From: an uncultured Paludibaculum sp.
Lineage (GTDB): Bacteria > Acidobacteriota > Terriglobia > Bryobacterales > Bryobacteraceae
Assembly (NCBI RefSeq): GCF_963665245.1
Contig: NZ_OY762267.1
Coordinates: 1 to 64,000, forward strand
DNA length: 64,000 nucleotides
Direction of reading: 5' to 3'
Part shown: one piece after another, positions 24,178 through 41,515 of the stretch
Position numbering within the stretch: position 1 is the stretch's first letter
Layout: every line of letters starts with the position of its first letter
Translations under genes and position numbers: made by a program
Notes under the pieces: generated by a model
Databases searched by the model: none
What the model saw: only the letters and a program-made list of their open reading frames with translations
Told to the model about the DNA's origin: nothing

Positions 24178-24216
24178 ATCAGCATTCTCCAGATGGACAT
24201 GAGGACCGGCCGTTGA

Positions 24217-24261
24217 CAAAAAAGAGGCGCGCTCCGGGCCTATCATGTCCCGAAGCGCGCC
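24217..24261 (-). terminator. Intrinsic terminator downstream of the TonB receptor gene
   Basis: On the minus strand an 8-bp stem (GGCGCGCT with AGCGCGCC) is extended, after one mismatch, by four more pairs around a 10-nt loop. It is followed by TCTTTTTT. It lies 12-56 nt past the TonB receptor stop at 24273, so that gene is a separate transcription unit from the Gfo-epimerase-DHDPS operon. Confidence 0.8.
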
Positions 24262-27200: not shown

Positions 27201-27461
27201 CTTCACGTCCACGGGCCGGAAGCCGGCCTGCGACACCTGCACGCGGTACTCGCCCGCGAGAAGATTCGGCACAGTGTAGTCGCCGTTGTTATTGGTAGTG
27301 GTGTTGAAGGCGGCCCCTGAGCCTTCGCTAGTTACGTTGACCTTGGCGCCAAGAACGACGGCGCCGGAAGAGTCTGTGACAGTGCCTACTATGGTGCCGG
27401 TGATACTCTGCGCGGAGAGACCGGCGGCAGTCAAGACCAATATGAGGATTGTTCGCAGCAT
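24273..27461 (-). CDS. TonB-dependent receptor, Oar-like, with carboxypeptidase-regulatory N-terminal domain
   Basis: This outer-membrane barrel of 1062 residues starts at MLRTILILVLTAAGLSAQ, a signal peptide with GGGAGG 9 nt upstream. Residues about 20-105 form the Ig-like carboxypeptidase regulatory domain (GTIVGTVTDSSGAVVLGAKV, NGDYTVPNLLAGEYRVQVSQ). The plug follows (QALPVNGRTTATFILIAPGN, FTVDGVSTDDLGN), then a long beta-barrel ending in an aromatic residue (DARTIQFGLKLLF). Acidobacteria use large sets of these for import of glycan fragments or peptides. A TCCAG-N4-CTGGA palindrome lies 81 bp upstream. It is divergent from a secreted glycan-active candidate, which supports a carbohydrate ligand. 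Confidence 0.88.
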   Translation of the reverse strand: MLRTILILVLTAAGLSAQSITGTIVGTVTDSSGAVVLGAKVNVTSEGSGAAFNTTTNNNGDYTVPNLLAGEYRVQVSQAGFRPVDVKHVTVLLNQTVRTDIRLEPGSLDQRVSVTAEAPLVQSETSSISSIIDTHAVQALPVNGRTTATFILIAPGNASDWASNPNIGGAQHWGGSKFTVDGVSTDDLGNGGGTYSYATSLATQPSLETIDEMKIESNSAKAEYSGSVAVSTITKRGSNTVHGSLFEFNRNAKLAANQFFSNAAGKARPPYNRNEFGGSVGGPVIKNRTFFFGAVEALTLRQSNVGTFSVPIQALRDGTFTTAVKDPLNGGAAFPNNQIPADRIDSRSKTMIGFIPLPTKAGNTYNYVENLPVEIGVQRYSARVDHNFNQSNMLGVSLAYAKGDPYSTNLYSPSMYGNYSNAGFLTKSASATYTRILSANITNELRASYFTMVNIRIGQNQDFNPASIFPGLFTPIPMGGLPTFNISGYTKVGDVGGAQPNPQITNQFGDTFSWVHGSHVTKAGVDGSFGRVSTNPSVSASVLGSFSFLARYTGNVIGDLLLGYPTSATRATATPPNVMRQNRYGFYVQDDWKATRNLTVNVGLRYELQTQFTERGGALSNFDFGSGQMVVRTTDGGQYSAAAIPDLLAAYPSVKSESVGWGSDLLLPDHKNFAPRVGVAYRPFGNNKTVVRGGYGIFYNLIPVYQGIYQLGISNTPYRLAQSFTGGATSPTISLASPFSVTPSVSANPVAYAVNRQLRNPYSQQWNLSVERVLPGEIGLRVAYLGNKANRVLYVNSDMNLPATMSSGNLQTQRPYQPWANIYTMSPTGNMFTHQMQVEATRRFNNGLFFQSSFNWTKTLDNVPYSGTVQNPYNTSLDRGNSEGIRRLTFYATGTYALPFGTGKKWANWDNPAKYLVSGWQLASVLQLRSGAPFSVTFTPALGGWYASRANVVSNDYYGSGQSIARWFNPAAFAAPEAFTFGNSARNMLFGPGSKSIDASLMKVTPINERFKTEFRAEFFNVPNTPSFGLPATDITVPSTVGIISSTTVDARTIQFGLKLLF

Positions 27462-27541
27462 GGTGAGCGACCTCCCGAGAAATCTTCTGATTCGCAGTAT
27501 GGGTGCCAGCGAAGATCCTCTCAATCGAAATAAAACGTTCA

Positions 27542-27555
27542 TCCAGAATCCTGGA
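27542..27555. promoter_or_regulatory. Candidate operator A: TCCAG-AATC-CTGGA
   Basis: This perfect 5+5 palindrome lies in the 184-bp gap between the divergent TonB receptor (minus) and the secreted protein gene at 27646 (plus). The same pattern recurs at 35227, 35251 and, with mismatches, at 37872 and 37889. It is extended by CGAAAACCC, as at 37903. It is probably bound by the IclR regulator of the region; that assignment is inference. Confidence 0.55.
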
Positions 27556-27645
27556 CGAAAACCCCTGGCATGCAACGGTGGATGGATTGACTGAATCTCT
27601 CAAGATCCGGTACTCTGACGCCGCGGTACCTTTGGATTCCTACGA

Positions 27646-29385
27646 ATGCGCCAACCTTCGATCTGCCTGATTTTATTGTCTCTCGGATGCTGCAGCACAG
27701 CCAGTGCCCAGTATCTTCCGGGCCGCTACTACACGTGGCTGGATGAAGGCGCGCGACGTATTCAGGAGCATCTGCGGGCCGCGCCCGGGGCGGATCTGAA
27801 ACAACTGGAACAGCCAGCCGGCTGGAACCACTTCCCGTATGCGGTGCTGACGCCCGCCGTCCTCTACAAACAGAAGCATGCCGCCAATCCGCACTTCGGC
27901 GATAAGCACATGCTGTCATTGGCCTTACAGATTGGCGACCTGTTGGTGAAGGAGAACGAGAAGGGAGACTTCGAGTCGCGCATCGATAGTTGGTGGGACA
28001 CCTACATGTGGCTCGAAGCCTACCGCTTGCTGAAGGACGATCTGGGCGAACCGCGCCGCGCCCGCTGGCAATGGGCGTTGGAGAAGAATATCGCCACCAT
28101 CGTGGACGAGAGCCGGGCGTGGCGCGATGTGCCCTGGTACACGTCCGCGTTCATCGGCACATCGACCAACCACTACTCGCTGTGGGCCGTGAACCTGATG
28201 ATCGCCGGGCCACTCTTCCACAAGCAGGAGTGGACGACGCTCGGGAAGCAGATCCTTCAGCGCTATGTCCGCCAGCAGCACGAAGATGGCTTCTGGGGCG
28301 AGCGCAGCCGCCTGACGCCCACGATAGGCTATGACCATTTGACGATGAGCGCCGTGGCGCTCTACTACGAGAACACGAAGGATCCAGCGGCCCTGCAGGC
28401 CCTGCGCCGCTCCACCGACTTCCACAAGTACTTCACCTATCCCGACGGCCAGCCGGTAGAGACGCTGAACGATCGCAACCGCTACTGGCACGTGATGGAC
28501 TGGGGGCAGTTCGCGTTTTCCTATTTCCCGGACGGCCGCGGCTATGCCGAGTTCCTGGCGAAGCATTTGCCGGAACACGATCTCGACATGGACGCGCTGG
28601 GCCGCATCGCCCAGAACGCCGTCTACTATCACGAAGGGCCCACGGCTCCGCCGCCGCAACTCCAAACGGCTTACTCGCGCCAGTTGCGGATCCCGGCCGG
28701 TATCCGCAAGACGGGCCCGTGGGTCGTGAACCTCTCCGCCCTGCGCGACACGCCGCTGCCGCTGAGCCAGTGGTTCCTGGAGCGGCAAGCGCACGTCAGC
28801 GTGTGGAACCAGAAGACGGGGCTCATCCTCACGGCCGCCAACTCGAAGAATCAGCCAGAGCTCGCGACCTTCAACGAGAAGATCGGCGGCAAGGTGGACT
28901 ACTTGCCCATCGACGGAAAGCTGTCGATGGACACGGCCGGAGACCGCCTGTCGCTGGGCTACCAGCGCTTCTTCGCGGATCTCACCACCACGCCGCCCAC
29001 CGGCAATGAGCTCGCCCTGCACTGGAGCATCACGGGTATGGGCCGCGCGCCGGAAGAGGCGCAACTGGCGCTGCAGGTGATCATCCAGCCCGGCCAGCCG
29101 CTCGACTCCGCCGCGAAACATGCGACCGCCGGCAAGGATCCAATCCTCTGGACGTCCGCTGACCTCGGTGGAGTCCTGAAACATAACGGTTGGACGATGC
29201 TGCTGCCACCCGAGGCGCGCTTCCAATGGCCGGTCTATCCCTACAATCCGTATCGCAATGGCCCGGAGTACCGTCTGGAACACGCGGTGGGTGTCGTCAC
29301 GATCCCGTTTACCCTGAAGGGTGGAACACACCCGTGGCTCCGCCCCGCCGAGCAGCAGTTCGACATCCGGATCCGCGTCGACTAA
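27646..29385 (+). CDS. Secreted protein, probable (alpha/alpha) toroid glycan-active enzyme
   Basis: This 579-residue protein has a signal peptide (MRQPSICLILLSLGCCSTAS, then AQ). Residues about 25-340 are helical and rich in Trp, Tyr and His, with DSWWDTYMWLEAYRLLKDDL, SAFIGTSTNHYSLWAVNLMI, RQQHEDGFWGERSRLTPTIG and DGQPVETLNDRNRYWHVMDW. This pattern is seen in alpha/alpha-toroid polysaccharide lyases and glycoside hydrolases. The C-terminal 230 residues look like a beta-sandwich. I cannot name the family. The location, divergent from a TonB receptor and beside sugar-acid genes, suggests it cuts a glycan outside the cytoplasm. Its 3' end overlaps the SDR gene by 4 nt on the opposite strand. 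Confidence 0.55.
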   Translation: MRQPSICLILLSLGCCSTASAQYLPGRYYTWLDEGARRIQEHLRAAPGADLKQLEQPAGWNHFPYAVLTPAVLYKQKHAANPHFGDKHMLSLALQIGDLLVKENEKGDFESRIDSWWDTYMWLEAYRLLKDDLGEPRRARWQWALEKNIATIVDESRAWRDVPWYTSAFIGTSTNHYSLWAVNLMIAGPLFHKQEWTTLGKQILQRYVRQQHEDGFWGERSRLTPTIGYDHLTMSAVALYYENTKDPAALQALRRSTDFHKYFTYPDGQPVETLNDRNRYWHVMDWGQFAFSYFPDGRGYAEFLAKHLPEHDLDMDALGRIAQNAVYYHEGPTAPPPQLQTAYSRQLRIPAGIRKTGPWVVNLSALRDTPLPLSQWFLERQAHVSVWNQKTGLILTAANSKNQPELATFNEKIGGKVDYLPIDGKLSMDTAGDRLSLGYQRFFADLTTTPPTGNELALHWSITGMGRAPEEAQLALQVIIQPGQPLDSAAKHATAGKDPILWTSADLGGVLKHNGWTMLLPPEARFQWPVYPYNPYRNGPEYRLEHAVGVVTIPFTLKGGTHPWLRPAEQQFDIRIRVD

Positions 29386-30140
29386 TGGGTGATGGCGTAG
29401 CCGCCGTCCACCCGCAGCACCGACCCTGTCACATACGAGGCGTCGTCGGAGACCAGGAACGCCGCCGTCTTCGCCACCTCTTGCGACGTAGCCAGGCGGC
29501 CCAGCAGCAGGTCCTTGCCCTTCGCCATAATCTGGTCTTCGGAATAGTAGACCCGCTCACCCGGAGTATCGGTCCAGCCGGGCTCCAGCACGTTCACGCG
29601 GATCTTGTACTGCGCCAGTTCCACGGCCCACGTGAGAGCCATCTGGTTCATGGCTGCCTTGGCTCCGTTGTAGGCGCTGCAGTTCGGATAGGGCCGCGAC
29701 GCGTGGACCGAACTGATCATCAGGATCGAGCCGCCGCCGCGCTCGGCCATGATGCGCGCCGCGAACTGGCTGCAATGGAACGCGCCCCACAGCGAGACCG
29801 CCCAGGTACGTTCCATATCCGCCGGATCCATCTCCAGCAGAGGCTTGCGCACGCTGTAGGCGGCGTTGTTGACGAGGATGTCCAACCGGCCGAACTCTTC
29901 GAGCACGGATCGGACCATCACCTCGTCTTCCGCCCGCTGCCCGACATCGGCCTGGATCACCATGGCGTCGCAACCCATGCGCTCGATCTCCGCCGCCACG
30001 TCCATGGCCTCTCCGCGATGCCTCGCGTAGTTGATCGCGACATTGGCTCCCAGCCGCGCCAACTCTACCGCGATGGCCCGCCCTATCCCACGCGACGCCC
30101 CAGTTACGAGCGCCGCGCGTCCCGCCAGTTTGCCTTCCAT
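29382..30140 (-). CDS. SDR family oxidoreductase
   Basis: This is a 252-residue classical short-chain dehydrogenase/reductase. It has the cofactor loop ALVTGASRGIGRAIAVELAR, the NNAA motif in LDILVNNAAYSV, the catalytic Ser in ILMISSVHASRP, and Tyr/Lys in CSAYNGAKAAMNQMALTWAV. The C-terminus is VTGSVLRVDGGYAITH. It resembles gluconate or glucose dehydrogenase-type SDRs. It is the last gene of the minus-strand run symporter-IclR-ceramidase-dehydratase-SDR, 4 nt after the dehydratase stop. Its likely role is NAD(P)-dependent oxidation of a sugar or sugar acid. Confidence 0.88.
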   Translation of the reverse strand: MEGKLAGRAALVTGASRGIGRAIAVELARLGANVAINYARHRGEAMDVAAEIERMGCDAMVIQADVGQRAEDEVMVRSVLEEFGRLDILVNNAAYSVRKPLLEMDPADMERTWAVSLWGAFHCSQFAARIMAERGGGSILMISSVHASRPYPNCSAYNGAKAAMNQMALTWAVELAQYKIRVNVLEPGWTDTPGERVYYSEDQIMAKGKDLLLGRLATSQEVAKTAAFLVSDDASYVTGSVLRVDGGYAITH

Positions 30141-30144
30141 GTGT

Positions 30145-31308
30145 CTACCAATCCGCTACAGATCCGTCGCGGTGATTGTAGGCCATCAGGACTTCCGGCT
30201 GGAAGGGATATTTGGCCGCCTCGGTTTCGTTGATGTCGATGCCCAACCCCGGCCGGGTGGGCGCCGTACAGATGCCTGCTTCCAGCGGGATGAACTCGCT
30301 GACGACATCGTTGCGCCACGGCACATCGGCGCGCACCATCTCCTGGATCAGGTAGTTCGGAGTGGCGAAGCCGACATGCGTCGAAGCCGCCGTGCTCACC
30401 GGCCCCTGCGGGTTGTGGCACGCCACGGACATCTGGTAGGTCTCGGCCATCGCCGCAATGCGCCGAGCTTCACTGATGCCGCCGCAATGCGAAACATCAG
30501 GCTGGATGATGGAGCACGCGCGTTTCTCGAAGAGTTCGCGGAACTCCCAACGGCCGACGAGACGCTCGCCGGTCGCAATGGGATAAGGCAGCGCCCGCGC
30601 CACCTCCACCAGGGCTTCCGTATGCTCCGGCCAGCAGGGCTCCTCATACCAGTAGAGGTTGTAGTCCACCAGCATGCGTCCGAACTGGATGGCTGCCGCC
30701 GGAGTCGTGCGCGCATGCAGATCGAGCATGATGTCGATGTCGTCGCCGGCCGACAGGCGCATGGCCTCCACGCACTTGGCCGCGCGCTTCAGGGTCGATG
30801 CGCTCTCGATGTATTCCGACACGGGAATCGGCATCGCCTTCACGGCCGTAAAGCCGCGCGACAGGCTGTCCTGGATCCGGGCGCCGAACTCCTCGGGCTC
30901 CACGGTCTTGTACATGCCTTCCAGCGTGCCGCCGCCCAGATGGTCGTAGAATCGCAGGGTGTCCCGCACCGGGCCGCCCAGCAGGTCGCATACAGGCTTG
31001 CCGCACTCCTTGCCCTTGATGTCCCACAAAGCCTGGTCGATACCGCTGATGGCGGAGAAGTTCGTGATGCCGCCGCGCCAGAAATACTGGCGGTGCATCA
31101 CCTGCCATAGATGCTCCACTCGCAGCGGATTCTGACCGATCAGCAGCACCGACAGGTCTTCAATCGCGCCCACCACGCCCTTGGTCTTCCATTCAAGCGT
31201 CGACTCGCCCCAGCCATACAAGCCGGGCTGATCCGTCTCGACCTTCACAAACACCCAGTTGCGCATCCGGGCATTCACCACCATCGTGGAGATCTTTGTG
31301 ATTTTCAC
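30145..31308 (-). CDS. Mandelate racemase / muconate lactonizing family dehydratase (galactonate-dehydratase-like)
   Basis: This 387-residue enolase-superfamily protein probably dehydrates an aldonate to its 2-keto-3-deoxy form. The N-terminal capping domain is MKITKISTMVVNARMRNWVF. In the barrel, IDIMLDLHARTTPAAA holds a metal Asp and the catalytic His. YWYEEPCWPEHTEAL holds the second ligand, TGERLVGRWEFRELFEKRAC the third, and VACHNPQGPVSTAA the general-base His. These match the DgoD-type arrangement. The start is a GTG overlapping the stop of the ceramidase-like gene (GTGA). Galactonate is a guess; other C5 or C6 acids are possible. Confidence 0.82.
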   Translation of the reverse strand: MKITKISTMVVNARMRNWVFVKVETDQPGLYGWGESTLEWKTKGVVGAIEDLSVLLIGQNPLRVEHLWQVMHRQYFWRGGITNFSAISGIDQALWDIKGKECGKPVCDLLGGPVRDTLRFYDHLGGGTLEGMYKTVEPEEFGARIQDSLSRGFTAVKAMPIPVSEYIESASTLKRAAKCVEAMRLSAGDDIDIMLDLHARTTPAAAIQFGRMLVDYNLYWYEEPCWPEHTEALVEVARALPYPIATGERLVGRWEFRELFEKRACSIIQPDVSHCGGISEARRIAAMAETYQMSVACHNPQGPVSTAASTHVGFATPNYLIQEMVRADVPWRNDVVSEFIPLEAGICTAPTRPGLGIDINETEAAKYPFQPEVLMAYNHRDGSVADW

Positions 31309-32708
31309 GCGTGCTCCTTCTCGTGCAATTCATTCAATACCCGCAGGGCCTCGGCGACCACCACGTCGCTGGCGTCCGCGGAAAACGGAGTGGCTTCGAT
31401 CTCGTAGCCGCCCTCGTCATAGGCGCTCCGGTCCGGAATGTAGCCGAACCCGCCATTGGAATAACCCGACATCAAAGTGAACGGAAACGGTGAGGCATCC
31501 GCTACGCGCTGGCCGATCGATGAGAACGGCTCGCCCGCCACACTCACCAGCGCCACGGGCCCGACGCGGATCACTTGCAGCGGCCAGGGCGTCTCCGTCT
31601 TTCCGTGGAACAGCCGCGCATTGTTCGCGCGCCAACCCATCTGCGTCGCCAGGCCGTTGGCCACGCTGAACTCCTCCATCCTTCCGGACTCGCGCAGACG
31701 GGCAGCCTCGGCTCGTAGCCGCGCCAGTTCCGCGTCTTCGGAATCAGGATCAGGGAATGCCTTCAGCGGCAGCGCCATCACGTGCGTCTCCATCTGGAGC
31801 ACTGGTGCCGCGTGCTCAACAGGCTCATACGCGTACTGCGCAATGTTGGCGCCGCTACGCACAATACCCGTCAATCGCCGCCGCGTGGGCTGCATCTCGA
31901 TGGCGGACGCCACGCCCGCCGCCGTCAAGCCCAACGTGCGGCCCATCCGCCGGTATACTTCCAAGTCACCTGTGAATCCGCGGCGAGGACCCAGGTCGCC
32001 GGCCGCTCCCTGCAGGAACAGGCAGAGCCCGCCCAGTGCCCGCTCCATCACTTGACGAGCCGGTCCCGGGAAATCCGGCGTGAAGCTCTGACTCTGCCAC
32101 GCGATAGTCGTACCGTGACAGGCATAGTGCAACAGGTGCGCCACCGGCTCACCATCCAGCGCCTCCAGGCGCACCACGTGCAGCGAGTGATCGCACTCCG
32201 AGTCCGCATCCTCGCCCACCACGGTGAGCCCATCTTCCGCCGTCACGCGACGCCTGCAGTTGATGCCGCATTGCCCTGCCCCGGCGCCTACCCTGACAGG
32301 CTTCATATCCTGCAACGCCTGCCACGCCGCCCCGGCGATGCGATCCGGCAGGCTCTCCAGGTAGCTCAACGCCATGTCGAGCCCTTCACTGATATTCGCC
32401 AGACGGAACGTGTTCGGGCCCGAATGCGTATGTGAGCACGAGAAGCGAATCCGCTCCTCCGCCAAACCCGTGGTCTTCGCAATCGCCCGCGCAATCTTGC
32501 CTGTCCACACGGCGTCGAATCCAATGGCGTCGGCTTCGACAATCACCACGCGCTCTCCGCCCTGTGCCAACGCCAGCGCCGTAGCGTAGAACGGCATATC
32601 CGCGCGATCACCACGCGCATGCGTCTGTGCGCCCCATCCACCCTGCGGCGTACCCGGCGCCGGAGTGATATCGCTCCGGCCCACGCCCGCCGTCAACTCC
32701 ATGGTCAT
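31305..32708 (-). CDS. Neutral/alkaline ceramidase N-terminal domain-like protein
   Basis: This 467-residue protein starts MTMELTAGVGRSDITPAPGT with PQGGWGAQ following, the usual opening of ceramidase-N-domain proteins. FSCSHTHSGPNTF supplies the His-rich metal site, and HLLHYACHGTTIAWQSQSFT and PDFPGPARQVMERA follow as in the family. No signal peptide is seen, so it is probably cytoplasmic. The fold is found in ceramidases, but members in sugar-acid loci have unknown substrates and could be amide hydrolases or lactonases. It overlaps both neighbours by 4 nt (IclR upstream, dehydratase downstream), so it is translated in the same operon. Confidence 0.78.
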   Translation of the reverse strand: MTMELTAGVGRSDITPAPGTPQGGWGAQTHARGDRADMPFYATALALAQGGERVVIVEADAIGFDAVWTGKIARAIAKTTGLAEERIRFSCSHTHSGPNTFRLANISEGLDMALSYLESLPDRIAGAAWQALQDMKPVRVGAGAGQCGINCRRRVTAEDGLTVVGEDADSECDHSLHVVRLEALDGEPVAHLLHYACHGTTIAWQSQSFTPDFPGPARQVMERALGGLCLFLQGAAGDLGPRRGFTGDLEVYRRMGRTLGLTAAGVASAIEMQPTRRRLTGIVRSGANIAQYAYEPVEHAAPVLQMETHVMALPLKAFPDPDSEDAELARLRAEAARLRESGRMEEFSVANGLATQMGWRANNARLFHGKTETPWPLQVIRVGPVALVSVAGEPFSSIGQRVADASPFPFTLMSGYSNGGFGYIPDRSAYDEGGYEIEATPFSADASDVVVAEALRVLNELHEKEHA

Positions 32709-33505
32709 GCCTTCATCTCCGGCTCCATCCGTTCATGTTCTTCCCGCGCCTCCGCGTAATTGCAGATGCGCGCCGAGGCCCGCTGCAGCAGATTCACAAA
32801 GGGCGGGATGCTCTGGTCCACCACCGTCCCCACCGTGCCCGTCACGCTCAGCGCCGCCACCACCTCGCCGCGCGGATTGAAGACCGGCACCGCCAGGCAG
32901 CGCACCTCCAGCTCCTCTTCCTCATCGTCGATGGCATAGCCACGCTCCACCGTCTTCGCCAGCTCGGCCCTCAACCCGGCCGCCGTCGTGATCGTCTTCC
33001 GCGTGTACCGCGCGTACGTCATCTTCGACAGAAACTCCTTGCGGTGCGCCTCCTGGCAATACGCCAGCAGAACCTTGCCCACCGACGTGCAATGCAGGTT
33101 CGTCCGCTTCCCCACCGTGGTATCGAACCGGATGAACCCCGGCCCTTCCACCTTCTGCACATATACCGCCTGATCGTTTTCCAGCACCGCCAGATGGCAC
33201 GTCAACCGCGCCTGCGCCGCCAGCCACTTCATCGGCTCCAGCGCAATCTCAGAGAGCTTCTGGTTCTGCACCATCTCCCGCCCGAGATTGAACACCTTCA
33301 TCGACAACATGTAGTTCCGGCTATTGGCCGACTTCGTCACATACCCGCAGCGCTCCAGTGTCAGCACCAACACATGGGCCGTACTCCGCGGAATATCCAG
33401 TCGACGGCCCAACTCGGCAATATTCATGCCGCGCCGCGACGAGTCCAGCACTTCGAGAATCTGCAGCGCCCGCTCAACGGAAGGAACAGTAGTTGTTGTC
33501 GGCAT
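32705..33505 (-). CDS. IclR family transcriptional regulator
   Basis: This 266-residue protein has an N-terminal winged helix-turn-helix (ALQILEVLDSSRRGMNIAEL, GRRLDIPRSTAHVLVLTLER) and a C-terminal effector domain with TTVGKRTNLHCTSVGKVLLA and VRCLAVPVFNPRGEVVAALS. IclR proteins usually bind short palindromes as dimers or tetramers and sense small organic acids. Here the gene lies inside the catabolic operon, 19 nt after the symporter and overlapping the ceramidase-like gene by 4 nt. It is thus likely to be the local regulator and the best candidate to bind the TCCAG-N4-CTGGA sites at 27.5, 35.2 and 37.9 kb. Confidence 0.9.
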   Translation of the reverse strand: MPTTTTVPSVERALQILEVLDSSRRGMNIAELGRRLDIPRSTAHVLVLTLERCGYVTKSANSRNYMLSMKVFNLGREMVQNQKLSEIALEPMKWLAAQARLTCHLAVLENDQAVYVQKVEGPGFIRFDTTVGKRTNLHCTSVGKVLLAYCQEAHRKEFLSKMTYARYTRKTITTAAGLRAELAKTVERGYAIDDEEEELEVRCLAVPVFNPRGEVVAALSVTGTVGTVVDQSIPPFVNLLQRASARICNYAEAREEHERMEPEMKA

Positions 33506-33524
33506 CTCGACTCCCTCTCAACTC

Positions 33525-35141
33525 CTACGACCGGCCTGGCCCCCAGAACTGGAACCAGATCACATACGCATACAGCGCCCCGGCCAGCCCCACCATCAAC
33601 CCCCACCACAGCAGCAGGCTGCGCGCGCCTTTCGCATAGGCCCGCTCGGACTCGGGCAAATCCAGATACTTCCGCGACCACAGGATTCCATCCACACTCG
33701 CTGCCGGAGGCGCCGGCGTCAGGTACGAAACCACCACCATCACCACCATGCACGTCGCCCACACCAGAAACGTGCGGTTCAGCCAGTTGTCGAACGGCTG
33801 CAGGAACCAGACGTGCTTGAACAACACATACTCCACCAGCGCCGTGTAGGGGAATCCGAAGATCAGCACAAACGTGGCCGCCTCGGCCGTGGCCCGCTTC
33901 CACAACACACCCAGCAGGAACACCACCGCAATCGGAGCCGCCACCCAGGCGCCCACATTCTGGATTACCAGAAACACACTGTGCTGACCATGCGTGAACC
34001 AGATCGCCAACCCCATGGCCAGCATCAGAATCAGGAAGCCACTCCAGCGCCCCACGCTCACCAGGTGCCCGTCACCCTTGCCTTGGCCGAAGAACGGCCG
34101 GTAAAGGTCCATCGTGAACACCGTGCTGCACGAGTTCAGAACAGAGCTCAGGTGCGACAGTAGAGCGCTGGCGATGCCGGCCATCACCACGCCGCCCAGG
34201 CCCAGCGGCACCAGTTCTTTCACCAGCCGCGGATACGCCTGATCCGGATCCACCAACCCCGGGAACAACTGGAACGCCACAATGCCCGGAATCACCACCA
34301 GGAACGGAAGCAGCAGCTTCATGAAGCCCGCGAAGATCACGCCCATCCGCGCGTCCCACTCCGATCGCGCCCCCAGGCACCGTTGCACAATGAACTGGTT
34401 CGTGCAGTTGTACCAGATGCCGATGGAGAGGAACAGCGTGAACACCCCGAACCACGGGTAGTTCGGATCCGTGATCGGGTAGATGATCTTGAACTTCGCC
34501 GGAAACTGGTGCATCAGGTTGACGATGCCGCCGGCCCGCTGCAGCCCCAGGTACGACACGATCAGCCCGCCCAGCATCAGAACGACGAACTGCAGGAAGT
34601 CGGTCCAGGCCACCGCGATCAACCCGCCATAGATCGTGTAGCTGCCCGCCAGCACCGTGAGCAGAACAATCGTCACGATCGGATCCAGTCCGAACATCCC
34701 CTCCAGCGCCTTCGCCCCCGCCAGCAGCACCACCGCCATTTGCGCCACAATCCACAGCACCAGCGAACAGACGGCAAACATGTACCTGCATGATTTGTTA
34801 TACCGGCGCTCCAGGAACTCCGGCATCGTGTAGATGCCACCGCGCAGGTAGTAGGGCAGGAAGATCCAGACCAGAGCCGAGAACGTGAACCAGTTCCCCC
34901 ACTCCCACTGGGCCACCACGAAGCCCACCGCGTAAGCGGCGCCCACCATGCCGATGAAATGCTCCGTGCTGATGTTGGCGGCAATGATCGAGCCGCCGAT
35001 GGCGTACCACGGCAGTTGCTCCCCCGCCAGGAAGTAGTCCTTCACGCTGGCCTTGCGCCGCCGCGACACCCACAGGCCGAGGCATATGTTCGCTACCAGA
35101 TACAGCGCGAACAGCAGTTGATCCAGTCGGCCGCCAAACAT
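33525..35141 (-). CDS. Sodium:solute symporter (SSS/SGLT family)
   Basis: This 538-residue membrane protein has 13 or 14 predicted helices. Typical segments are IGGSIIAANISTEHFIGMVG, the conserved YTIYGGLIAVAWTDFLQFVV and LSHLSSVLNSCSTVFTMDLY. The family imports sugars, sugar acids or other small solutes with Na+. It is the first gene of the minus-strand run ending with the SDR gene, so it likely imports the substrate of the dehydratase pathway. GGAG lies about 10 nt before the ATG. Two candidate operators lie 86 and 110 bp upstream. Confidence 0.88.
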   Translation of the reverse strand: MFGGRLDQLLFALYLVANICLGLWVSRRRKASVKDYFLAGEQLPWYAIGGSIIAANISTEHFIGMVGAAYAVGFVVAQWEWGNWFTFSALVWIFLPYYLRGGIYTMPEFLERRYNKSCRYMFAVCSLVLWIVAQMAVVLLAGAKALEGMFGLDPIVTIVLLTVLAGSYTIYGGLIAVAWTDFLQFVVLMLGGLIVSYLGLQRAGGIVNLMHQFPAKFKIIYPITDPNYPWFGVFTLFLSIGIWYNCTNQFIVQRCLGARSEWDARMGVIFAGFMKLLLPFLVVIPGIVAFQLFPGLVDPDQAYPRLVKELVPLGLGGVVMAGIASALLSHLSSVLNSCSTVFTMDLYRPFFGQGKGDGHLVSVGRWSGFLILMLAMGLAIWFTHGQHSVFLVIQNVGAWVAAPIAVVFLLGVLWKRATAEAATFVLIFGFPYTALVEYVLFKHVWFLQPFDNWLNRTFLVWATCMVVMVVVSYLTPAPPAASVDGILWSRKYLDLPESERAYAKGARSLLLWWGLMVGLAGALYAYVIWFQFWGPGRS

Positions 35142-35226
35142 ATGGATATCCGTCTCCAGGGTCCAGCTCAGGGAAACCCTATTGTCCGGGCTGGGTCCCC
35201 TGGAAACAAGGATTTACGTCCCAATG

Positions 35227-35264
35227 TCCAGAATACTGGACAGAACCAAATCCAGCATCCTGGA
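35227..35264. promoter_or_regulatory. Candidate operator pair B: TCCAG-AATA-CTGGA and TCCAG-CATC-CTGGA
   Basis: Two perfect palindromes at 35227-35240 and 35251-35264 have starts 24 bp apart. They sit in the 123-bp gap upstream of the symporter operon and touch the stop codon of the preceding Gfo gene at 35265. Two sites at this spacing suit an IclR-type dimer of dimers. The short stems might also act as hairpins, but no T tract follows. Confidence 0.6.
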
Positions 35265-36482
35265 TCAGGCGGGCGCTTGGCCGTAATCGTGGATCTTCAT
35301 CGATTCACCGCCGCGCAGTGCCGACTGGTGCGCAACGATGCCCGGCAACGTATACGCGATGGCCTCCCACACGTTCACCGTGGGGTGCCGGTCCTCCAGC
35401 ACCGCGCGCACAAACTCGTGCGTCAGGAACGTGTGCGAATCACCGTGTCCGCTCTTCACCCGCAGCGGTTCCGGCAGCCGTTCCAGATAGTTGGCCTTCT
35501 TGTCCGCCAACATCTCCGTCTCGCCTTCCGGATACCCGTTGGAGTCGAGCACCGTCTTGCCCTGCGACGAGATCCGCACGAAGGTGTCCTGCGTACCCTC
35601 CGGCCGCTCCATCAGGTAGGACATGCGGTCGCCGTAGAACTGGCCGCGCTCGCTGCCCGCCGCCGCCACATGCCAGTAGACCGCCACGCGCGCCGAATGC
35701 CCCTTCGACGTCTTGAAGAACGCCGTCTCGTTCCAGAATGGATTCTTATACTGATTCGTCCGCAGCACCTCGTGCCCGTCGCCCCAGCCGACGGCCGTCA
35801 CCTCCGACATCCGCTCGCGGATCACCGGAATAATCAGCCCCGTGCAGTGCGTCGGATACAGCATCGGCGGCAGACCGTGCCGCCACGTGGGTAGCCCCCG
35901 GTCGTCGAACATCACCTTCATCAGACCCTCGTGGTGATACTCGGCCTCCGAGTGGAAGATCGTACCGAACTTCCCTTCCCCCGCCAGCTCCCGGCACGTG
36001 ATCACGGGCTGCCGGTAGTAGCTGGTCTCCGCCATCATGTACCGCAACCCAGTCTTCTTCACAGTGTCAAGGATCTCCTCCAATTCCTCGACACTCAACC
36101 CGGCCGGCACGGCGCTGATCACGTGCTTGCCCGCCTTCATCGCCTCCACCGCCATGAACGCATGCAGCGGAGCCGGCGTGAACACGGCCACGGCATCCAG
36201 ATCCGGATGCTTCAGAAACTCGCGGAAGTTCTTGTAGGTGTTCGTGCAGCGATACCGCTCGGCCAGCGCCTTCTGCTTCTCCGGCAGCAGGTCACAAACC
36301 GCCACCACCTTGCAGTCCGGGTCCAGGTGCCAGAAGAAGGTGTTCCCGAATCCTCCACCGATCACACCAATACGCAGTTGCTTGCCGGTCCGCGGACCAG
36401 GAGCCGACTGCAGCAGGGGCGCGGCGCCGGCCGCTGCGGCGACACCCAGAAATCCGCGGCGCGAAACGGTAGGCTGGCTCAT
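35265..36482 (-). CDS. Gfo/Idh/MocA family oxidoreductase with Tat leader
   Basis: This 405-residue protein starts MSQPTVSRRGFLGVAAAAGA, a twin-arginine leader ending near QSAPG. The Rossmann loop is RIGVIGGGFGNTFF, where a longer loop replaces the usual GxGxxG. Then come AVAVFTPAPLHAFMAVEAMK and GKHVISAVPAGLSVEELEEI, where the EKP motif of the family is AVP, so the catalytic Lys is absent. C-terminal CTGLIIPVIRERMSEVTAVG follows. The gene overlaps the aminotransferase stop by 4 nt. The lost Lys suggests an altered reaction or a binding role. Confidence 0.82.
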   Translation of the reverse strand: MSQPTVSRRGFLGVAAAAGAAPLLQSAPGPRTGKQLRIGVIGGGFGNTFFWHLDPDCKVVAVCDLLPEKQKALAERYRCTNTYKNFREFLKHPDLDAVAVFTPAPLHAFMAVEAMKAGKHVISAVPAGLSVEELEEILDTVKKTGLRYMMAETSYYRQPVITCRELAGEGKFGTIFHSEAEYHHEGLMKVMFDDRGLPTWRHGLPPMLYPTHCTGLIIPVIRERMSEVTAVGWGDGHEVLRTNQYKNPFWNETAFFKTSKGHSARVAVYWHVAAAGSERGQFYGDRMSYLMERPEGTQDTFVRISSQGKTVLDSNGYPEGETEMLADKKANYLERLPEPLRVKSGHGDSHTFLTHEFVRAVLEDRHPTVNVWEAIAYTLPGIVAHQSALRGGESMKIHDYGQAPA

Positions 36483-37810
36483 TTCTTTTTCAACTCCCCA
36501 ATCACGGCATCGCACGCTTCCAGCGTACGGTCGACATCGGCCTGCGTGTGGCTCAGGCTCAGATGGTTGCGCTTCAGATTCATGGGCAGCTTGAAGATGC
36601 CCTTCGATACCAGACGCCGCCGGTACTCGACAAAGAACGCCGCGTCATTGCGGTACAGGTCAGTGAAGCTGCGAATCGGCCCTTCCATGAAGTAGGTAAG
36701 GAACACCGAACCAAAACCGGCCACCGTCGCGGGCACTCCATGCCGCGACACAATCTCGCGCAACCCGGACCGCATCCGGTCGCCCAACGCAAACAGATAC
36801 TGGTGCGACTCCGGCTTCTCCAACACTTCAATGGTAGCCAACGCCGCCGCCGCGCCCACCGGATGACCGTTGAACGTGCCGGCCCAGAAGACGTCGCCCC
36901 CGGCGCGCGTATTGAATCTGTCCATCAGATCCCGCCGCCCGGCCAGCGCCGCAATGGGATACCCGTTCGCAATTGCCTTGCCCAACGTCGTCAGATCCGG
37001 AATCACTCCGCAAATCTTCTGGTATCCGCCTAGACTGTGCCGGAAGCCCGTGATGACTTCATCGAAGATCAGAATCGTGCCATGCTTCTGCGTCAGTGCC
37101 CGCAGGCCTTCCAGAAACGCCTGCTCCGGCATCACGCAGCCGATATTGTGAGGAATCGGCTCCAGAATCACCGCCGCGATGTTCTCCGGATTCTCCGCGA
37201 ACACCTGCTTCACCTCTTCCAGGTTATTGAACTCGCAAACGAACGTGTCCGCGACCACAGCCGCGTGCGCGCCCGCCGACAACGGATCGCGCCGCCCCAG
37301 TTTCTCCTTCGGCGTAATCACGTTCATCGCCAAAGAGTCGTGGAAGCCGTGATAGCACCCCTGGAACTTGATCACCTTCGTCCGCCCGGTCACGGCGCGC
37401 GACAACCGGATGGCGTGATACGTCGCCTCGCTGCCGGAGTTGCAGAGCAATGCCTTATCGCCCGACGGGATGTGCTGGACGATCTTCTTCGCCAGCTCGA
37501 TCTCCAGCGGCCCGATGCCGACCCCCACCTGATCGGTCTCGGCAATGGCGGCCTTCACCCGCCGCGTCACCGCCGGATGACTGTGCCCTAGAATCGGAGG
37601 CCCGAACGCCCCGTGATAATCCAGATACCGGGTCCCGTCCATGTCATGGAAATAGGCGCCCTCCGCGCGAACCGGCACCAGCCGTGGTTCCACGGCTCGC
37701 AGCGAACTATTCACCCCACCGGGAATGAACTCCATCGCCTGCTCCAGGTGCTGCTGTTTCGCAATGATGCAATCTGTTTCCGTCAATTGGTCCATGTTGC
37801 TGGTCGACAC
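36479..37810 (-). CDS. Class III aminotransferase, glutamate-1-semialdehyde aminomutase-like
   Basis: This 443-residue PLP enzyme has the HemL-type layout: GGVNSSLRAVEPRLVPVRAE at the start, CNSGSEATYHAIRLSRAVTG, KVIKFQGCYHGFHD, ILIFDEVITGFRHSLGGYQK with the PLP Asp, and TTLGKAIANGYPIAALAG with the PLP Lys. The start is a GTG (37810) with GAGG upstream. A true haem-synthesis gene would be expected elsewhere; here it is coupled to a Gfo/Idh/MocA gene within a sugar-acid region, so an amino-sugar or omega-amino-acid substrate is more likely. A pair of operator-like sites lies 62-92 bp upstream. Confidence 0.82.
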   Translation of the reverse strand: MSTSNMDQLTETDCIIAKQQHLEQAMEFIPGGVNSSLRAVEPRLVPVRAEGAYFHDMDGTRYLDYHGAFGPPILGHSHPAVTRRVKAAIAETDQVGVGIGPLEIELAKKIVQHIPSGDKALLCNSGSEATYHAIRLSRAVTGRTKVIKFQGCYHGFHDSLAMNVITPKEKLGRRDPLSAGAHAAVVADTFVCEFNNLEEVKQVFAENPENIAAVILEPIPHNIGCVMPEQAFLEGLRALTQKHGTILIFDEVITGFRHSLGGYQKICGVIPDLTTLGKAIANGYPIAALAGRRDLMDRFNTRAGGDVFWAGTFNGHPVGAAAALATIEVLEKPESHQYLFALGDRMRSGLREIVSRHGVPATVAGFGSVFLTYFMEGPIRSFTDLYRNDAAFFVEYRRRLVSKGIFKLPMNLKRNHLSLSHTQADVDRTLEACDAVIGELKKK

Positions 37811-37871
37811 GATGCTGGTTCCCTCACTTGAGAATCACGTTGATTATCAAGCGCATTCACCGCGCCATCAA

Positions 37872-37902
37872 ACCAGCATTTTGGATTGTCCATATTCCTG
37901 GA
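37872..37902. promoter_or_regulatory. Candidate operator pair C (imperfect): ACCAG-CATT-TTGGA and TCCAT-ATTC-CTGGA
   Basis: Two imperfect copies of the TCCAG-N4-CTGGA pattern lie at 37872-37885 and 37889-37902, in the 219-bp gap between the aminotransferase (minus) and the second TonB receptor (plus). The second copy is followed by CGAAAACCC exactly as at site A, giving a shared 16-mer. It is probably part of the same regulon. Confidence 0.45.
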
Positions 37903-38029
37903 CGAAAACCCGTCACCCCCCGCAAGGCCCGTCCCACCGCGCCATGATAGAATCCGGCTTCAGGGATCCATCGCCGCGCGTCAGCCCTGAAGCCGTCCCG
38001 TCATTTGGCAGAAAGGTTCCGTCGCAGCC

Positions 38030-41000
38030 GTGTTCCACCCCCGTTGGCATCTCGCCGCTCTCTTCCTCACCGGCACTCTTCTATGCGCCCAATCCGGATC
38101 CACCGGAGCATTGGAAGGCACGGTCCTCGACGCCGCCGGCGCGCCCGTCCCCAACGCCTCCGTCACCCTCCACAACCCTGCCACCGATCAGGCACACACC
38201 GCCACCACCGACGACAAAGGCGCCTTCCGCTTCTCGCTGCTCGAACCCGCCACCTACCAACTCACCTTCTCGACGGCAGGCTTCAAAACCGCGCACATGC
38301 CCGAAGTCGCCATCAGCGTCTCGGAGATACCCGTTCTCGAAGCGACACTCGAAGCGGGTAACCCGTCCGACTCCACCGACTGCCACTGCAAGGTCACCGC
38401 CACCGCGCCCTCCACCGGAACCCTGATCGACCGCAAGACCATCACCGCCGTTCCCCTGAATACCCGCAACTTCACCCAGATCCTCTCCATGTCCTCCGGT
38501 TCCGCCGCCGACGTCAACAACGCCGGCACCCTCGGACGCGGCACCTCCAGCGTGAACATCAACGGCAATACGACCTCCGGCTCCTACACCATCGACGGCG
38601 CCTACTCGCCCAGCACGGTCCCGAACCCGGACACCATTTCCGAGTTCAAAATCCAAACCTCTCAATACGACGCCGGCTTCGGAGCCATGGTGCCCAACAC
38701 CAACCTCGTCACGCGCCGCGGCGAAAACGAGTACCACGGCAACCTGTGGGAGTTCCTCCGCAACGACATCTTCAACGCCAACGCCTTCTTCCGCAACTCC
38801 ACCGGCCAGCCCAAGCCCAACCTCAAGCAGAACCAATTCGGCGCCACGCTCGGCGGACCCATCCTCCACAACAAGTGGTTTTTCTTCGGCTCTTACCAGG
38901 GCACTCGCCAGATCAACGGCCTCGACCCCACCTCCGTCGCCAACCTGATCCTGCCCGCTCTCGGTAACGACCGCTCCGCCGCCACCATCGCCTCGCAGTT
39001 CTGTCCCGGCAATCACACCAACTCCGCGGCCTACTCCACCTTCGCCGGCGGCAAGCAGCTCGACTGCAACAACCAGAACACCGCCACCACCGCCGCCATC
39101 AACCCCGTCGCCCTCCGCCTGCTGCAGGCCAAGGCCGCCGACGGGACTTACCTCATTCCCATCCCGCAGACCATCATCTCCTCCGGAGCCAACACCGGCC
39201 TGGGCTTCTCCGCCTACAGCATGCCGTCGAAGTACAACGAGAACCACTTCCTCGGCAACACCGACTACGTTCTCTCCCCCAAACACACGTTCTCCGGCCG
39301 CCTCTTCGCCGCCACCGTCGATCAGTTGCGCAGCTTCGGCTCACCCGGAGGCTATCCCGGAGCCCCCGTCGTCCCGGGTTGGGGCGCCAATCAGATTCTG
39401 AAGGCGACCGACGTCGCCACCAGCGGCCGCCTCACCTCGAACCTCACCGCCAACGTCGTGAACGAGGCCACCATGGCGTTCACCCGCAACAACACCGACG
39501 CCGTCGGCGGCGGCTTCCCACAAGCCTCCGACTTCGGCATGACCGCCGTCGACGCCCTCTTCCCGCATCCCCCCGAGATCACCGTGCTCGGCGGCCTGGG
39601 CACGTTCCGCCTGTTCGGAACGAACCCGAACGACAACCATTTCCAGACCGTCACTTACTCTCTCGCCGACAACCTCTCCTGGGTTCGCGGCCGTCAACGC
39701 ATCCGCATGGGTGGGTCCTACCTGAACCAATACAATGGCCGCGCCGACACCGGAGGCGCCCGAGGCAAGATCACCTTCCAGAACTTCACTGACTTCCTAC
39801 TGGGCCTCAGCGCCGCCGACAACCTCAGCCCCGCCGGCCGCAGCAACATCCAGACCGTCCAGGCCAGTGAAGGCGTCGGAGCCAATGGCGAAGTCGAATA
39901 CCGCTACCGCCGCCACTACGCCTCCGGCTACGTCCAGGACGACATCAAGTTCGGCCCGCGTTTCACCCTCAACGCTGGCCTCCGCTGGGAGTTCATCGGC
40001 CCCTCCTACGACACCGCCGGCACCGTAGGCAACATCTCCATGGCCGCCCTGCGCACCATGCCCGTGCCTCCGCTCTCCGGAACCCTGGTAGGCAACACCG
40101 TCGCCGCCAACTACGACGCCAACCTGACCAACCCCTACACCGGCCAGCCCTTCGGAGCCCCGCCGCAGGGCGTCACCATCCGCGCCAACAGCAGCTTCTA
40201 CGACAACGGCACCCCGCGCGACCGCTTTGCCCCGCGCCTTGGCTTCGCCTGGCAGCCCCTCGGTTCTTCCGGACGCCTGGTGCTGGGCGGAGGCTACGGC
40301 TGGTTCTATCAGACACCCACGTTCAGCGGCAACGCCGGCTCCGCACCGCTCTTCACCGCGCCGCCGTTCGCTCAGAGCTTCACGAATACCGACGCCAGCA
40401 ACAGTCAATCCACTTTCCAGCAGCCCTTCCCGCAAGCGACCCTCGGCTACGTCCTGCGCACACCCACCTCACAGCTCTCTGACCGTGTGGCGGGCCCCGA
40501 GTACAAACTCCCCCGGCTGCAGCAGTGGAACACCAGCCTCAAGCTGAAGCTGAACCAGGCCATGTCCCTCGATCTCGCCTATGTCGGCTCCCAGGCGGGC
40601 GACGTCCTCTTTGCCCATGGCCTGAACCAACCCGTGCTGGCCACTGCCGCCCATCCGGTGAACTGTGGCTACGACGGCGACCCGTCACACTGCATCACCA
40701 CCAACACTTCGCGCAACGCCAAACAGCGTGTGCCGATCCTCGGCGAAACACCCACAGCTCTCCTGTCCAGCGAGTTCGGGGCCAAATCCTGGTACCACAG
40801 CATGCAGGCCACCGTCCGCGGCCGCACCGCCCACGGCCTCAACTTCCAAGCCGCCTACACGCTTTCCAAGGCTCTCAGCAACACCACGGTCTTCAACGAC
40901 CAGAGCGGCCTGGAGCAATCCAAGGCCCGTACCTCCTTCGACCGCACTCACCGTCTCATCGGCAACTTCGAGTACACCCTACCGTCCCCAGCCCAGGCGC

Positions 41001-41515
41001 ACGGCCTGCGCGGCGTGCTCGCCAACGGCTGGTCGCTGTCTGGCATCATCATCGTGCAGAGCGGGCTCCCCATGACCTTGACCGACCCCAGCGGCGGAGC
41101 CGTCTACGGACGCGCCGGCACGTCCACCGTAACCCTCTGCCCTGGAGCCACCTATGCCCAACTCGTCACCGACGGCGGCATCACCCAGCGGCTGGGCCAT
41201 TGGATCAACTCCAGCGCTATCTGTCCGGCGGCAGTGGTCGGCGATGATGGCGCGACCGGCTACGGCACCACGGGCCAGAGCATCATGAACGGCCCCAGCC
41301 AGGTCAATACGGACTTTTCGTTAGGAAAGCGCACCCGGGTGGGCGGCCTGCGGGAAGATGGCGAACTGGCCTTCCGGGTGGAGTTCTACAACGCGATGAA
41401 TCACCCGCAATTTTCCAATCCCGGTACGACCCTGGGCACGGCGAGTTTTGGAGTAATCACGCAAACCTCGGTGGCCCCCAGGCTCATCCAATTCGGTCTG
41501 AAGTATCTTTTCTAG
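38030..41515 (+). CDS. TonB-dependent receptor, Oar-like
   Basis: This is a 1161-residue outer-membrane receptor. The GTG start gives a signal peptide (MFHPRWHLAALFLTGTLLCA). A carboxypeptidase-regulatory Ig-like domain follows (GALEGTVLDAAGAPVPNASV, FRFSLLEPATYQLTFSTAGF), then the plug (VPLNTRNFTQILSMSSG, NINGNTTSGSYTIDGA) and the barrel, with GFAWQPLGSSGRLVLGGGYG late in the chain and RLIQFGLKYLF at the end. It is divergent from the aminotransferase-Gfo pair, with operator-like sites in between, and is the second receptor of this region. It may bring in the same glycan as the receptor at 24.3 kb, or a companion. Confidence 0.88.
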   Translation: MFHPRWHLAALFLTGTLLCAQSGSTGALEGTVLDAAGAPVPNASVTLHNPATDQAHTATTDDKGAFRFSLLEPATYQLTFSTAGFKTAHMPEVAISVSEIPVLEATLEAGNPSDSTDCHCKVTATAPSTGTLIDRKTITAVPLNTRNFTQILSMSSGSAADVNNAGTLGRGTSSVNINGNTTSGSYTIDGAYSPSTVPNPDTISEFKIQTSQYDAGFGAMVPNTNLVTRRGENEYHGNLWEFLRNDIFNANAFFRNSTGQPKPNLKQNQFGATLGGPILHNKWFFFGSYQGTRQINGLDPTSVANLILPALGNDRSAATIASQFCPGNHTNSAAYSTFAGGKQLDCNNQNTATTAAINPVALRLLQAKAADGTYLIPIPQTIISSGANTGLGFSAYSMPSKYNENHFLGNTDYVLSPKHTFSGRLFAATVDQLRSFGSPGGYPGAPVVPGWGANQILKATDVATSGRLTSNLTANVVNEATMAFTRNNTDAVGGGFPQASDFGMTAVDALFPHPPEITVLGGLGTFRLFGTNPNDNHFQTVTYSLADNLSWVRGRQRIRMGGSYLNQYNGRADTGGARGKITFQNFTDFLLGLSAADNLSPAGRSNIQTVQASEGVGANGEVEYRYRRHYASGYVQDDIKFGPRFTLNAGLRWEFIGPSYDTAGTVGNISMAALRTMPVPPLSGTLVGNTVAANYDANLTNPYTGQPFGAPPQGVTIRANSSFYDNGTPRDRFAPRLGFAWQPLGSSGRLVLGGGYGWFYQTPTFSGNAGSAPLFTAPPFAQSFTNTDASNSQSTFQQPFPQATLGYVLRTPTSQLSDRVAGPEYKLPRLQQWNTSLKLKLNQAMSLDLAYVGSQAGDVLFAHGLNQPVLATAAHPVNCGYDGDPSHCITTNTSRNAKQRVPILGETPTALLSSEFGAKSWYHSMQATVRGRTAHGLNFQAAYTLSKALSNTTVFNDQSGLEQSKARTSFDRTHRLIGNFEYTLPSPAQAHGLRGVLANGWSLSGIIIVQSGLPMTLTDPSGGAVYGRAGTSTVTLCPGATYAQLVTDGGITQRLGHWINSSAICPAAVVGDDGATGYGTTGQSIMNGPSQVNTDFSLGKRTRVGGLREDGELAFRVEFYNAMNHPQFSNPGTTLGTASFGVITQTSVAPRLIQFGLKYLF

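Follow-up and report, generated by a model that had tools for sequence, protein, structure and literature searches.

What does the palindrome TCCAG-N4-CTGGA do in front of several transcription units of a single gene cluster, which protein reads it, and would that protein switch the genes on or off? The question arises from a 64,000-nucleotide (nt) stretch of DNA (the window, hereafter) of an uncultured Paludibaculum species (contig NZ_OY762267.1), in which the palindrome recurs on either side of a gene for an IclR-family regulator (32705-33505). Acidobacteria, to which this organism belongs, are abundant in soil, and their gene control is little mapped. Judged from sequence, the palindrome is very likely the operator of this regulator; moreover, we consider it probable that it is a conserved promoter element through which the regulator would activate three operons, headed by genes for a TonB-dependent receptor, a sodium:solute symporter (this operon includes iclR itself) and an aminotransferase.

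The palindrome and its conservation

A scan of the window finds perfect copies at 27542, 35227 and 35251 (O1, O2 and O3, respectively; Table 1), a copy with one mismatch at 37889 (O4) and a copy with two mismatches at 37872, exactly where an earlier note on this DNA had placed them. All five lie between genes, as that note had also held, according to a simple codon-usage gene caller written for this analysis; against this call, a mechanical list of open reading frames contains longer or antisense frames over 27542 and 37889. The fuller form of the palindrome is GTCCAGNATNCTGGAC, the central AT is present in all three perfect copies, and O2 and O3 are 24 base pairs (bp) apart, centre to centre. 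The background of imperfect copies is high, with 47 places in the window matching with at most two mismatches, versus a mean of 30.3 in shuffled sequences (standard deviation 5.5; none of 100 shuffles reached 47), so that a lone copy with two mismatches means little. The copy at 37872 has two mismatches in the window and in the relative G006 alike and is, therefore, treated as weak: the earlier note had listed it among the sites, for which it does not qualify. Two one-mismatch copies that were absent from that list, at 27813 and 29139, are inside the secreted-enzyme gene; the latter has an identical counterpart in the relative G002 (L057 9463), which is probably a coding effect. Additionally, the flank that faces away from the promoter (for example, 27556-27563) tends to TTCG or TTTG before TCCAG, and the functional site may, therefore, be asymmetric.

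The cluster is carried by four relatives, namely, G002 and G006, in which the IclR protein is 94% identical, and G007 and G008, in which it is 64% identical. Perfect copies of TCCAG-N4-CTGGA are found in corresponding gaps of all four, and the gap between the first receptor gene and the secreted-enzyme gene has one in every case. When this gap is aligned across the five genomes, TCCAGNATCCTGGAC forms a block that is unbroken except at its free base, and the flanks differ. The pair of copies before the symporter gene, again 24 bp apart, is retained in G002 and G006; in G007 and G008, there is no copy between the Gfo/Idh and symporter genes, and a perfect copy lies upstream of the Gfo/Idh gene. 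The copy before the aminotransferase gene is perfect in G006, the G002 contig stops before that gene, and no aminotransferase gene was found within the 20 kb searched in G007 and G008. In three more distant genomes (L134, L135 and L215), no operator was found directly before the symporter gene, which seems to sit inside a longer gene run there. Two of these have a second IclR-like gene, about 25% identical, beside a TonB receptor at the place of the secreted enzyme (L134 3762 and L135 3451).

Co-occurrence with the IclR regulator

The proposed binder is a member of the IclR family, scoring 58.8 bits for HTH_IclR and 158.3 bits for IclR_C, versus cut-offs of 22 and 24, respectively. In the DNA upstream of its homologues, all 13,312 palindromes with five-letter arms and gaps of 0-12 were counted. 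Among 24 homologues of 40-60% identity, a set that leaves out the window's own locus and close relatives, the top-ranking palindrome is GTCCA-N6-TGGAC, which is the window motif shifted by one base: it is present with at most one mismatch in nine and perfectly in four, and TCCAG-N4-CTGGA itself ranks sixth (6 of 24, one mismatch allowed). The latter is again sixth (5 of 17) among 17 homologues of 36-40% identity, where ATCCA-N6-TGGAT leads with six, and it is upstream of none of the 19 homologues below 36%. In a further 21 IclR loci (47-57% identity), drawn from two family-wide searches and leaving out four loci seen earlier as well as a hit interrupted by an internal stop, TCCAG-N4-CTGGA ranks first of the 13,312, being present with at most one mismatch at 13 loci and perfectly at three; these 13 span five genera and are not all independent. 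At 18 of the 21 loci, some of which are short, no other window gene has a counterpart of more than 38% identity nearby. With the other cluster genes unseen there, the palindrome appears to follow the regulator.

The sequence of the recognition helix co-varies with the site. Homologues with a strong site have His44 in 22 of 22 cases and Val45 in 18, compared with 28 and 7, respectively, of the 47 homologues with a weak site or none (the count drew on 86 rows, less 12 of intermediate score and five close relatives). Moreover, a sister group with Ser-Tyr at residues 44-45 often has TTCA-type palindromes upstream, and together these patterns suggest that residues 44-45 may change the operator. Four loci (L097, L103, L104 and L113) have the helix PKSSASY and TTCA...TGAA palindromes upstream of the IclR homologue.

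The palindrome is, thus, predicted to be the IclR operator because it is conserved in relatives, has a central AT and co-occurs with the regulator. This bears out the earlier note in its proposal of a compact local regulon with IclR as the likely regulator, as regards both the copies in the corresponding gaps of the four relatives and the recurrence upstream of IclR homologues. Binding by some other protein, such as another IclR paralogue, with the iclR gene a mere neighbour, is improbable: the genome encodes five further IclR homologues, and binding specificity can shift within a family, but the motif stands beside this iclR clade at loci that mostly show no other gene of the cluster nearby, and it is missing upstream of the most divergent homologues.

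Promoter geometry and the direction of control

The predicted promoters of the receptor, symporter-iclR and aminotransferase operons share a constant layout, in which the operator is followed after 17 nt by a -35 box and, after another 17 nt, by a -10 box, both of sigma-70-like sequence; the centre of the operator is at about -60 from the predicted start, which would fall near 27489, 35174 and 37836, respectively, on the minus strand. The Gfo/Idh promoter of G007 and G008 has the same 17/17 layout, with TTTCCG as its -35 and CATCAT or CATGAT as its -10. Offsets of 0-74 nt were scored with matrices of the E. coli type. By the family mean, 17 is the best of the 75 offsets in four of six operator-promoter pairings (receptor, symporter, aminotransferase and the Gfo/Idh gene of G007 and G008), and the probability that four families share one top offset is 2.4e-6 by column shuffling. 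The receptor promoters of L134, L135 and L215 (48-55% receptor identity), which were examined afterwards, also have a top offset of 17, with spacings between -35 and -10 of 19, 18 and 17 nt, respectively. Taken individually, 12 of the 15 promoter sequences, these three included, have 17 as their own best offset, and the remaining three have it second or third.

On the predicted boxes, then, the operator lies upstream of the -35 at a fixed helical phase, which is the class-I-type arrangement. MhpR of E. coli is an IclR-family activator whose site near -58 has an upstream, class-I-like position. A class-I activator requires an operator that is entirely on the upstream side of the -35 and at one set distance from it, and we, therefore, favour activation; the chief alternative is repression. 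An IclR dimer would sit on each palindrome and, from a centre near -60, would contact RNA polymerase from one and the same side of the DNA helix. The inducer may be a sugar acid or one of the 2-keto-3-deoxy sugar acids, the latter as a product of the operon's dehydratase. Since iclR is itself part of an operon that its product would control, induction would act in a feed-forward manner. Many related genomes also have a copy shortly upstream of the iclR start codon, through which the regulator might repress its own gene.

Alternatively, the same protein could bind and repress, with a dimer, or a tetramer bridging sites such as O2 and O3, blocking or trapping RNA polymerase until a sugar-acid ligand releases it. 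We regard this as unlikely, albeit well short of negligible. The IclR family comprises repressors, activators and dual regulators (PMC8222616, in the portion of the text covered here), a tetramer could make use of the paired copies at the symporter promoter, and 17 out of 23 related loci have a copy 11-40 nt upstream of the iclR start codon, a position from which transcription could be blocked; but steric repression would require neither the single exact distance at which the operator stands upstream of the -35 at three window promoters, nor the phasing by approximately one helical turn that separates the classes of offset seen elsewhere.

These classes emerge from the divergent promoters of other IclR loci. 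Of the 34 loci given, 17 passed both thresholds, and 15 of these have a copy at 7-8, 17-20 or 29-30 nt, as scored with a matrix built partly from the sites of the same loci; at L065 and L229, another promoter had the higher score, hence their offset of 56. In a circular test with a period of 10.5 bp, the full set of 17 values has P = 0.001; manual merging by genus leaves ten values, with P = 9.5e-05, or 0.004 if that genus is represented by 56, and adding four 17s of window-type promoters gives 1e-05. Pairing the promoters instead with the copy close to the iclR start codon had given offsets often near 70 (P = 0.0046 in a circular test on nine distinct offsets); this pairing was replaced, there being a nearer copy in the sequences. 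A broader rule can be drawn from this tentatively, and with rather less confidence than activation in the window itself: a whole clade of acidobacterial IclR proteins may consist of class-I activators whose operators are helix-locked at about 7, 17-20 or 29-30 nt from the -35, and whose residues 44-45 would set the operator letters (TCCAG for His-Val, TTCA-type for Ser-Tyr).

A number of points weigh against activation through a dedicated operator. As regards the geometry, the promoter scores rest on E. coli-type matrices, and the 17-nt layout was first spotted by eye in alignments, which makes the P value of 2.4e-6 post hoc in part. Among the six pairings, two depart from 17, namely, the enzyme promoter (31-58 nt) and the second receptor (22 nt, with no -35), and another offset ranks above 17 in three individual sequences, two from receptor promoters and one from a symporter promoter. 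The promoters of L134, L135 and L215 are mutually homologous, two of them have a spacing of 18 or 19 nt between -35 and -10, and two have a degraded right half-site. At 20 other or more distant loci, 17 comes out on top in only four of 50 site facings, two of these being the L134 and L135 receptors; other IclR subclades have other offsets (7-8, 19-20 and 29-30 nt), and the position of the site shortly before iclR in the 17 of 23 loci suits repression. As regards the link to the regulator, no copy with at most one mismatch is present at 15 of the 24 loci of the first set (18 for the TCCAG-N4 form) or at eight of the 21 in the second. Moreover, the tandem spacing of 24 bp before the symporter gene, identical in G002 and G006, differs from the 18-22 nt given for the tandem palindromes of IclR tetramers in the portion of PMC8222616 covered here; O4 and the weak copy at 37872 are 17 bp apart.

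The genome-wide distribution belongs on the same side of the balance. In the 9.54-Mb genome, the bare 14-mer has 18 perfect copies, compared with three for its reversed control; when all 18 were checked, 15 proved to be inside called genes, leaving only the three window copies as intergenic. The earlier note had looked to a genome-wide scan for enrichment in promoters, and named the opposite outcome as one that would speak against it: for the bare motif, the opposite is what the scan gives. As 15 of 18 is close to the coding fraction of the caller (0.88, from the window and 11 other stretches), the excess over the reversed control is probably an effect of coding composition. Taken over the whole genome, the bare 14-mer does not behave as a promoter word, and its enrichment was rejected as support. 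With the central AT, TCCAGNATNCTGGA has four copies in the genome, three of them the intergenic ones of the window, and it matches in 12 of the 41 genomes scanned, in none of which does its reversed control occur. Allowing this AT core one mismatch yields 31 places, of which five are intergenic, near the 12% non-coding share, and this, too, counts against a dedicated operator. For GTCCAG-N4-CTGG, seven of 30 places examined (from 43 listed) are intergenic, with two of the seven being the O2 palindrome on both strands and one being in a stretch without any called genes. Perfect AT-core copies elsewhere in the genomes of the relatives are mostly within genes, where looked at. It might, then, be argued that CTGG and CCAG words are simply common in a GC-rich genome, and that the palindrome is functionless, as the 18 copies and their location in genes would permit; conservation in diverged intergenic DNA, the palindrome enumeration in two sets of loci and the fixed distance to the promoter render chance highly improbable.

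Targets, cluster function and comparison with known systems

With regard to the targets proposed by the earlier note, the fixed 17 nt speaks for the promoters of the first receptor, the symporter-iclR operon and the aminotransferase. The promoter of the secreted enzyme is itself conserved and faces the other way from O1, but its distance from O1 drifts (31, 31, 31, 40 and 58 nt in the five genomes), for which reason the place of the enzyme in the regulon, as a gene controlled through O1, is doubtful. The second receptor gene, also on that list, has a -10-like box and no -35 and is a candidate target only.

The regulon may also extend beyond the cluster. Outside the cluster, at C1:1657614 (L019), an FAA-hydrolase gene is preceded by an intergenic copy that has one mismatch here and is perfect at the matching place in G002 (C32:168655, L129) and G006 (C1:8073009, L126), making this gene a plausible distant member. 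A -10-like TACACT follows the operator at 29 nt, a distance shorter by 11 nt than that at the window promoters, and the FAA-hydrolase gene is below the NCBIfam cut-offs. Thus, of the "local" regulon envisaged previously, the sharing of operators within the cluster stands, and its confinement to the cluster may not. In another genome of the family, a perfect TCCAGTATACTGGA is found 20 nt before an L-threonine 3-dehydrogenase gene (L133 5232; G012 C11:31231).

Table 1. Positions of the putative operators, predicted promoter boxes and genes in the window
Feature	Positions	Strand	Remarks
Operator O1	27542..27555	-	perfect; TCCAGGATTCTGGA read toward TonB-receptor gene; kept in 4 relatives, altered in 3 more distant genomes
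Operator O2 (proximal, symporter-iclR operon)	35227..35240	-	perfect; kept in G002 and G006
Operator O3 (distal)	35251..35264	-	perfect; abuts Gfo/Idh stop codon; kept in G002 and G006
Operator O4 (aminotransferase operon)	37889..37902	-	TCCATATTCCTGGA on + strand; perfect 14-mer in G006
Weak 2-mismatch copy	37872..37885		abuts -35 of aminotransferase operon; significance doubtful
Predicted -35 TTGAGA, TonB-receptor operon	27519..27524	-	17 nt after O1; top of 75 offsets in family mean; aligned
Predicted -10 CATACT, TonB-receptor operon	27496..27501	-	17 nt after -35
Predicted -35 TTGTTT, symporter-iclR operon	35204..35209	-	17 nt after O2
Predicted -10 GACAAT, symporter-iclR operon	35181..35186	-	17 nt after -35
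Predicted -35 TTGATG, aminotransferase operon	37866..37871	-	17 nt after O4
Predicted -10 GATAAT, aminotransferase operon	37843..37848	-	17 nt after -35
Predicted -35 TTGACT, secreted-enzyme gene	27587..27592	+	distance to O1 not kept
Predicted -10 TACTCT, secreted-enzyme gene	27611..27616	+	alignment and offset scoring
-10-like TAGAAT, second TonB-receptor gene	37948..37953	+	conserved with G006; no -35
IclR-family regulator, proposed binder	32705..33505	-	Pfam HTH_IclR and IclR_C above cut-offs; recognition helix PRSTAHV, residues 39-45
Sodium:solute symporter, first gene of IclR operon	33525..35141	-	Pfam SSF
Ceramidase-like protein	31305..32708	-	Pfam Ceramidase_alk
Enolase-superfamily dehydratase, D-galactonate dehydratase type	30145..31308	-	NCBIfam NF010624
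SDR dehydrogenase	29382..30140	-	Pfam adh_short_C2
TonB-dependent receptor, first gene after O1	24273..27461	-	outer-membrane barrel and CarboxypepD_reg domain
Gfo/Idh oxidoreductase	22975..24246	-	probably in TonB-receptor operon
NAD-dependent epimerase family	21936..22961	-	probably in TonB-receptor operon
DHDPS-like aldolase	20908..21933	-	probably in TonB-receptor operon; 21.2 bits, just under Pfam cut-off 22.1
Class-III aminotransferase	36479..37810	-	glutamate-1-semialdehyde aminomutase type
Gfo/Idh oxidoreductase	35265..36482	-	weak Tat-signal match; downstream of aminotransferase
Secreted protein	27646..29385	+	polysaccharide-lyase-like predicted fold (AF2 model, pLDDT 82; Foldseek); regulon membership doubtful
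Second TonB-dependent receptor	38030..41515	+

The genes of the operons, taken together with the lyase-like fold of the neighbouring secreted protein, suggest that the cluster serves the uptake and breakdown of sugar acids derived from polyuronides, the substrate being presumed from this content. The dehydratase passes the equivalog cut-off of NF010624 (354.5 versus 311 bits), and the aldolase-like gene is below the NCBIfam cut-offs. The secreted protein, of 579 amino acids, matches no Pfam or NCBIfam family, and the PF25840 label borne by some of its homologues was not reproduced in the four proteins scanned. It has 952 homologues at E ≤ 0.001; few of the 120 listed are named, and those are from Acidobacteriota groups. 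The homologue of Paludibaculum fermentans, a cultivable relative, is 88% identical. Across 20 aligned sequences, an Asn-His-Tyr run is invariant. The predicted fold, a toroid plus a β-sandwich, is like those of dermatan-sulfate epimerase and of chondroitin, hyaluronate, heparan and alginate lyases, with a best Foldseek E value of 4e-11 and TM-scores by query mostly of 0.45-0.65, at about 10% sequence identity.

Among described sites, the window operator resembles those of IclR group 1, and would be a further even-length site of that kind with a strict layout. The portion of the survey by Suvorova and Gelfand (2021, PMC8222616) covered here defines an NGT-12-ACN subgroup with even-length sites of the form NGTYCRAW4TYGRACN, rich in sugar-acid regulons and COG1028 dehydrogenases. 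The window motif is likewise an even palindrome, of 18 bp, whose outer arms are GTCCA/TGGAC and whose centre is of the A/T type, and the window cluster, too, contains an SDR gene. The NGTYCR and YGRACN arms are both found at O2 and O4, and one of them at O1, and the outer G/C is missing on both sides at O3. In contrast to the subgroup, the inner base is G/C (29 of 30 half-sites) rather than A/T, and the centre is NATN rather than W4. The same text ascribes to IclR proteins with even-length sites a preference for Pro at position 1 of the helix-turn-helix (HTH), Ser or Glu at 30, and Ala or Asn, without Arg, at 33; the window protein has Pro8, Thr42 and Val45 at these positions (1mkm alignment), in accord with one preference of the three, and Pro8 is not kept in the clade. 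Acidobacteria are named neither in Table 2 nor elsewhere in the text of that survey, and the operator strings, as typed, had no match in the literature searched.

The same source, to the same extent, lists motifs of individual regulators. That of the IclR-family PobR of Acinetobacter, TTGTCCGATSATCGGACAR (its Table 1), has outer half-sites, TTGTCC/GGACA, that are very similar to the window motif, but it is odd-length, the substrate is aromatic, and the proteins are similar only at the level of the family; PDB entry 5hpf is titled p-hydroxybenzoate hydroxylase transcriptional activator. The MhpR motif, GGTGCACCTGGTGCACA, is unrelated to the window palindrome, and that of KdgR, RWWGAAACGNCGTTTCAKKA, is a different palindrome. 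KdgR nevertheless offers a parallel as an IclR protein in a sugar-acid cluster, and its structure 1ysp is the third-best PDB hit, although the window protein scores 170 bits, versus a cut-off of 275, for the KdgR-type equivalog NF011671. IclR regulators are also predicted for D-galactonate/De Ley-Doudoroff loci of mat bacteria, with D-galactonate proposed as the effector of one (PMC5507952, in the portion covered); as described there, these resemble the window in having an iclR gene beside D-galactonate genes and differ in phyla and transporters.

Overall, for one sugar-acid-type cluster, the locus brings together a regulator with the operator and the promoter boxes predicted for it, and the fixed spacing points to the possibility of annotating related clusters by sequence alone. 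To a family that comprises both repressors and activators, it would add a strict positional rule. Should the tentative rule for the acidobacterial clade be true, operator, promoter and start site would be readable from the sequence of the regulator alone, in a phylum with few mapped promoters.

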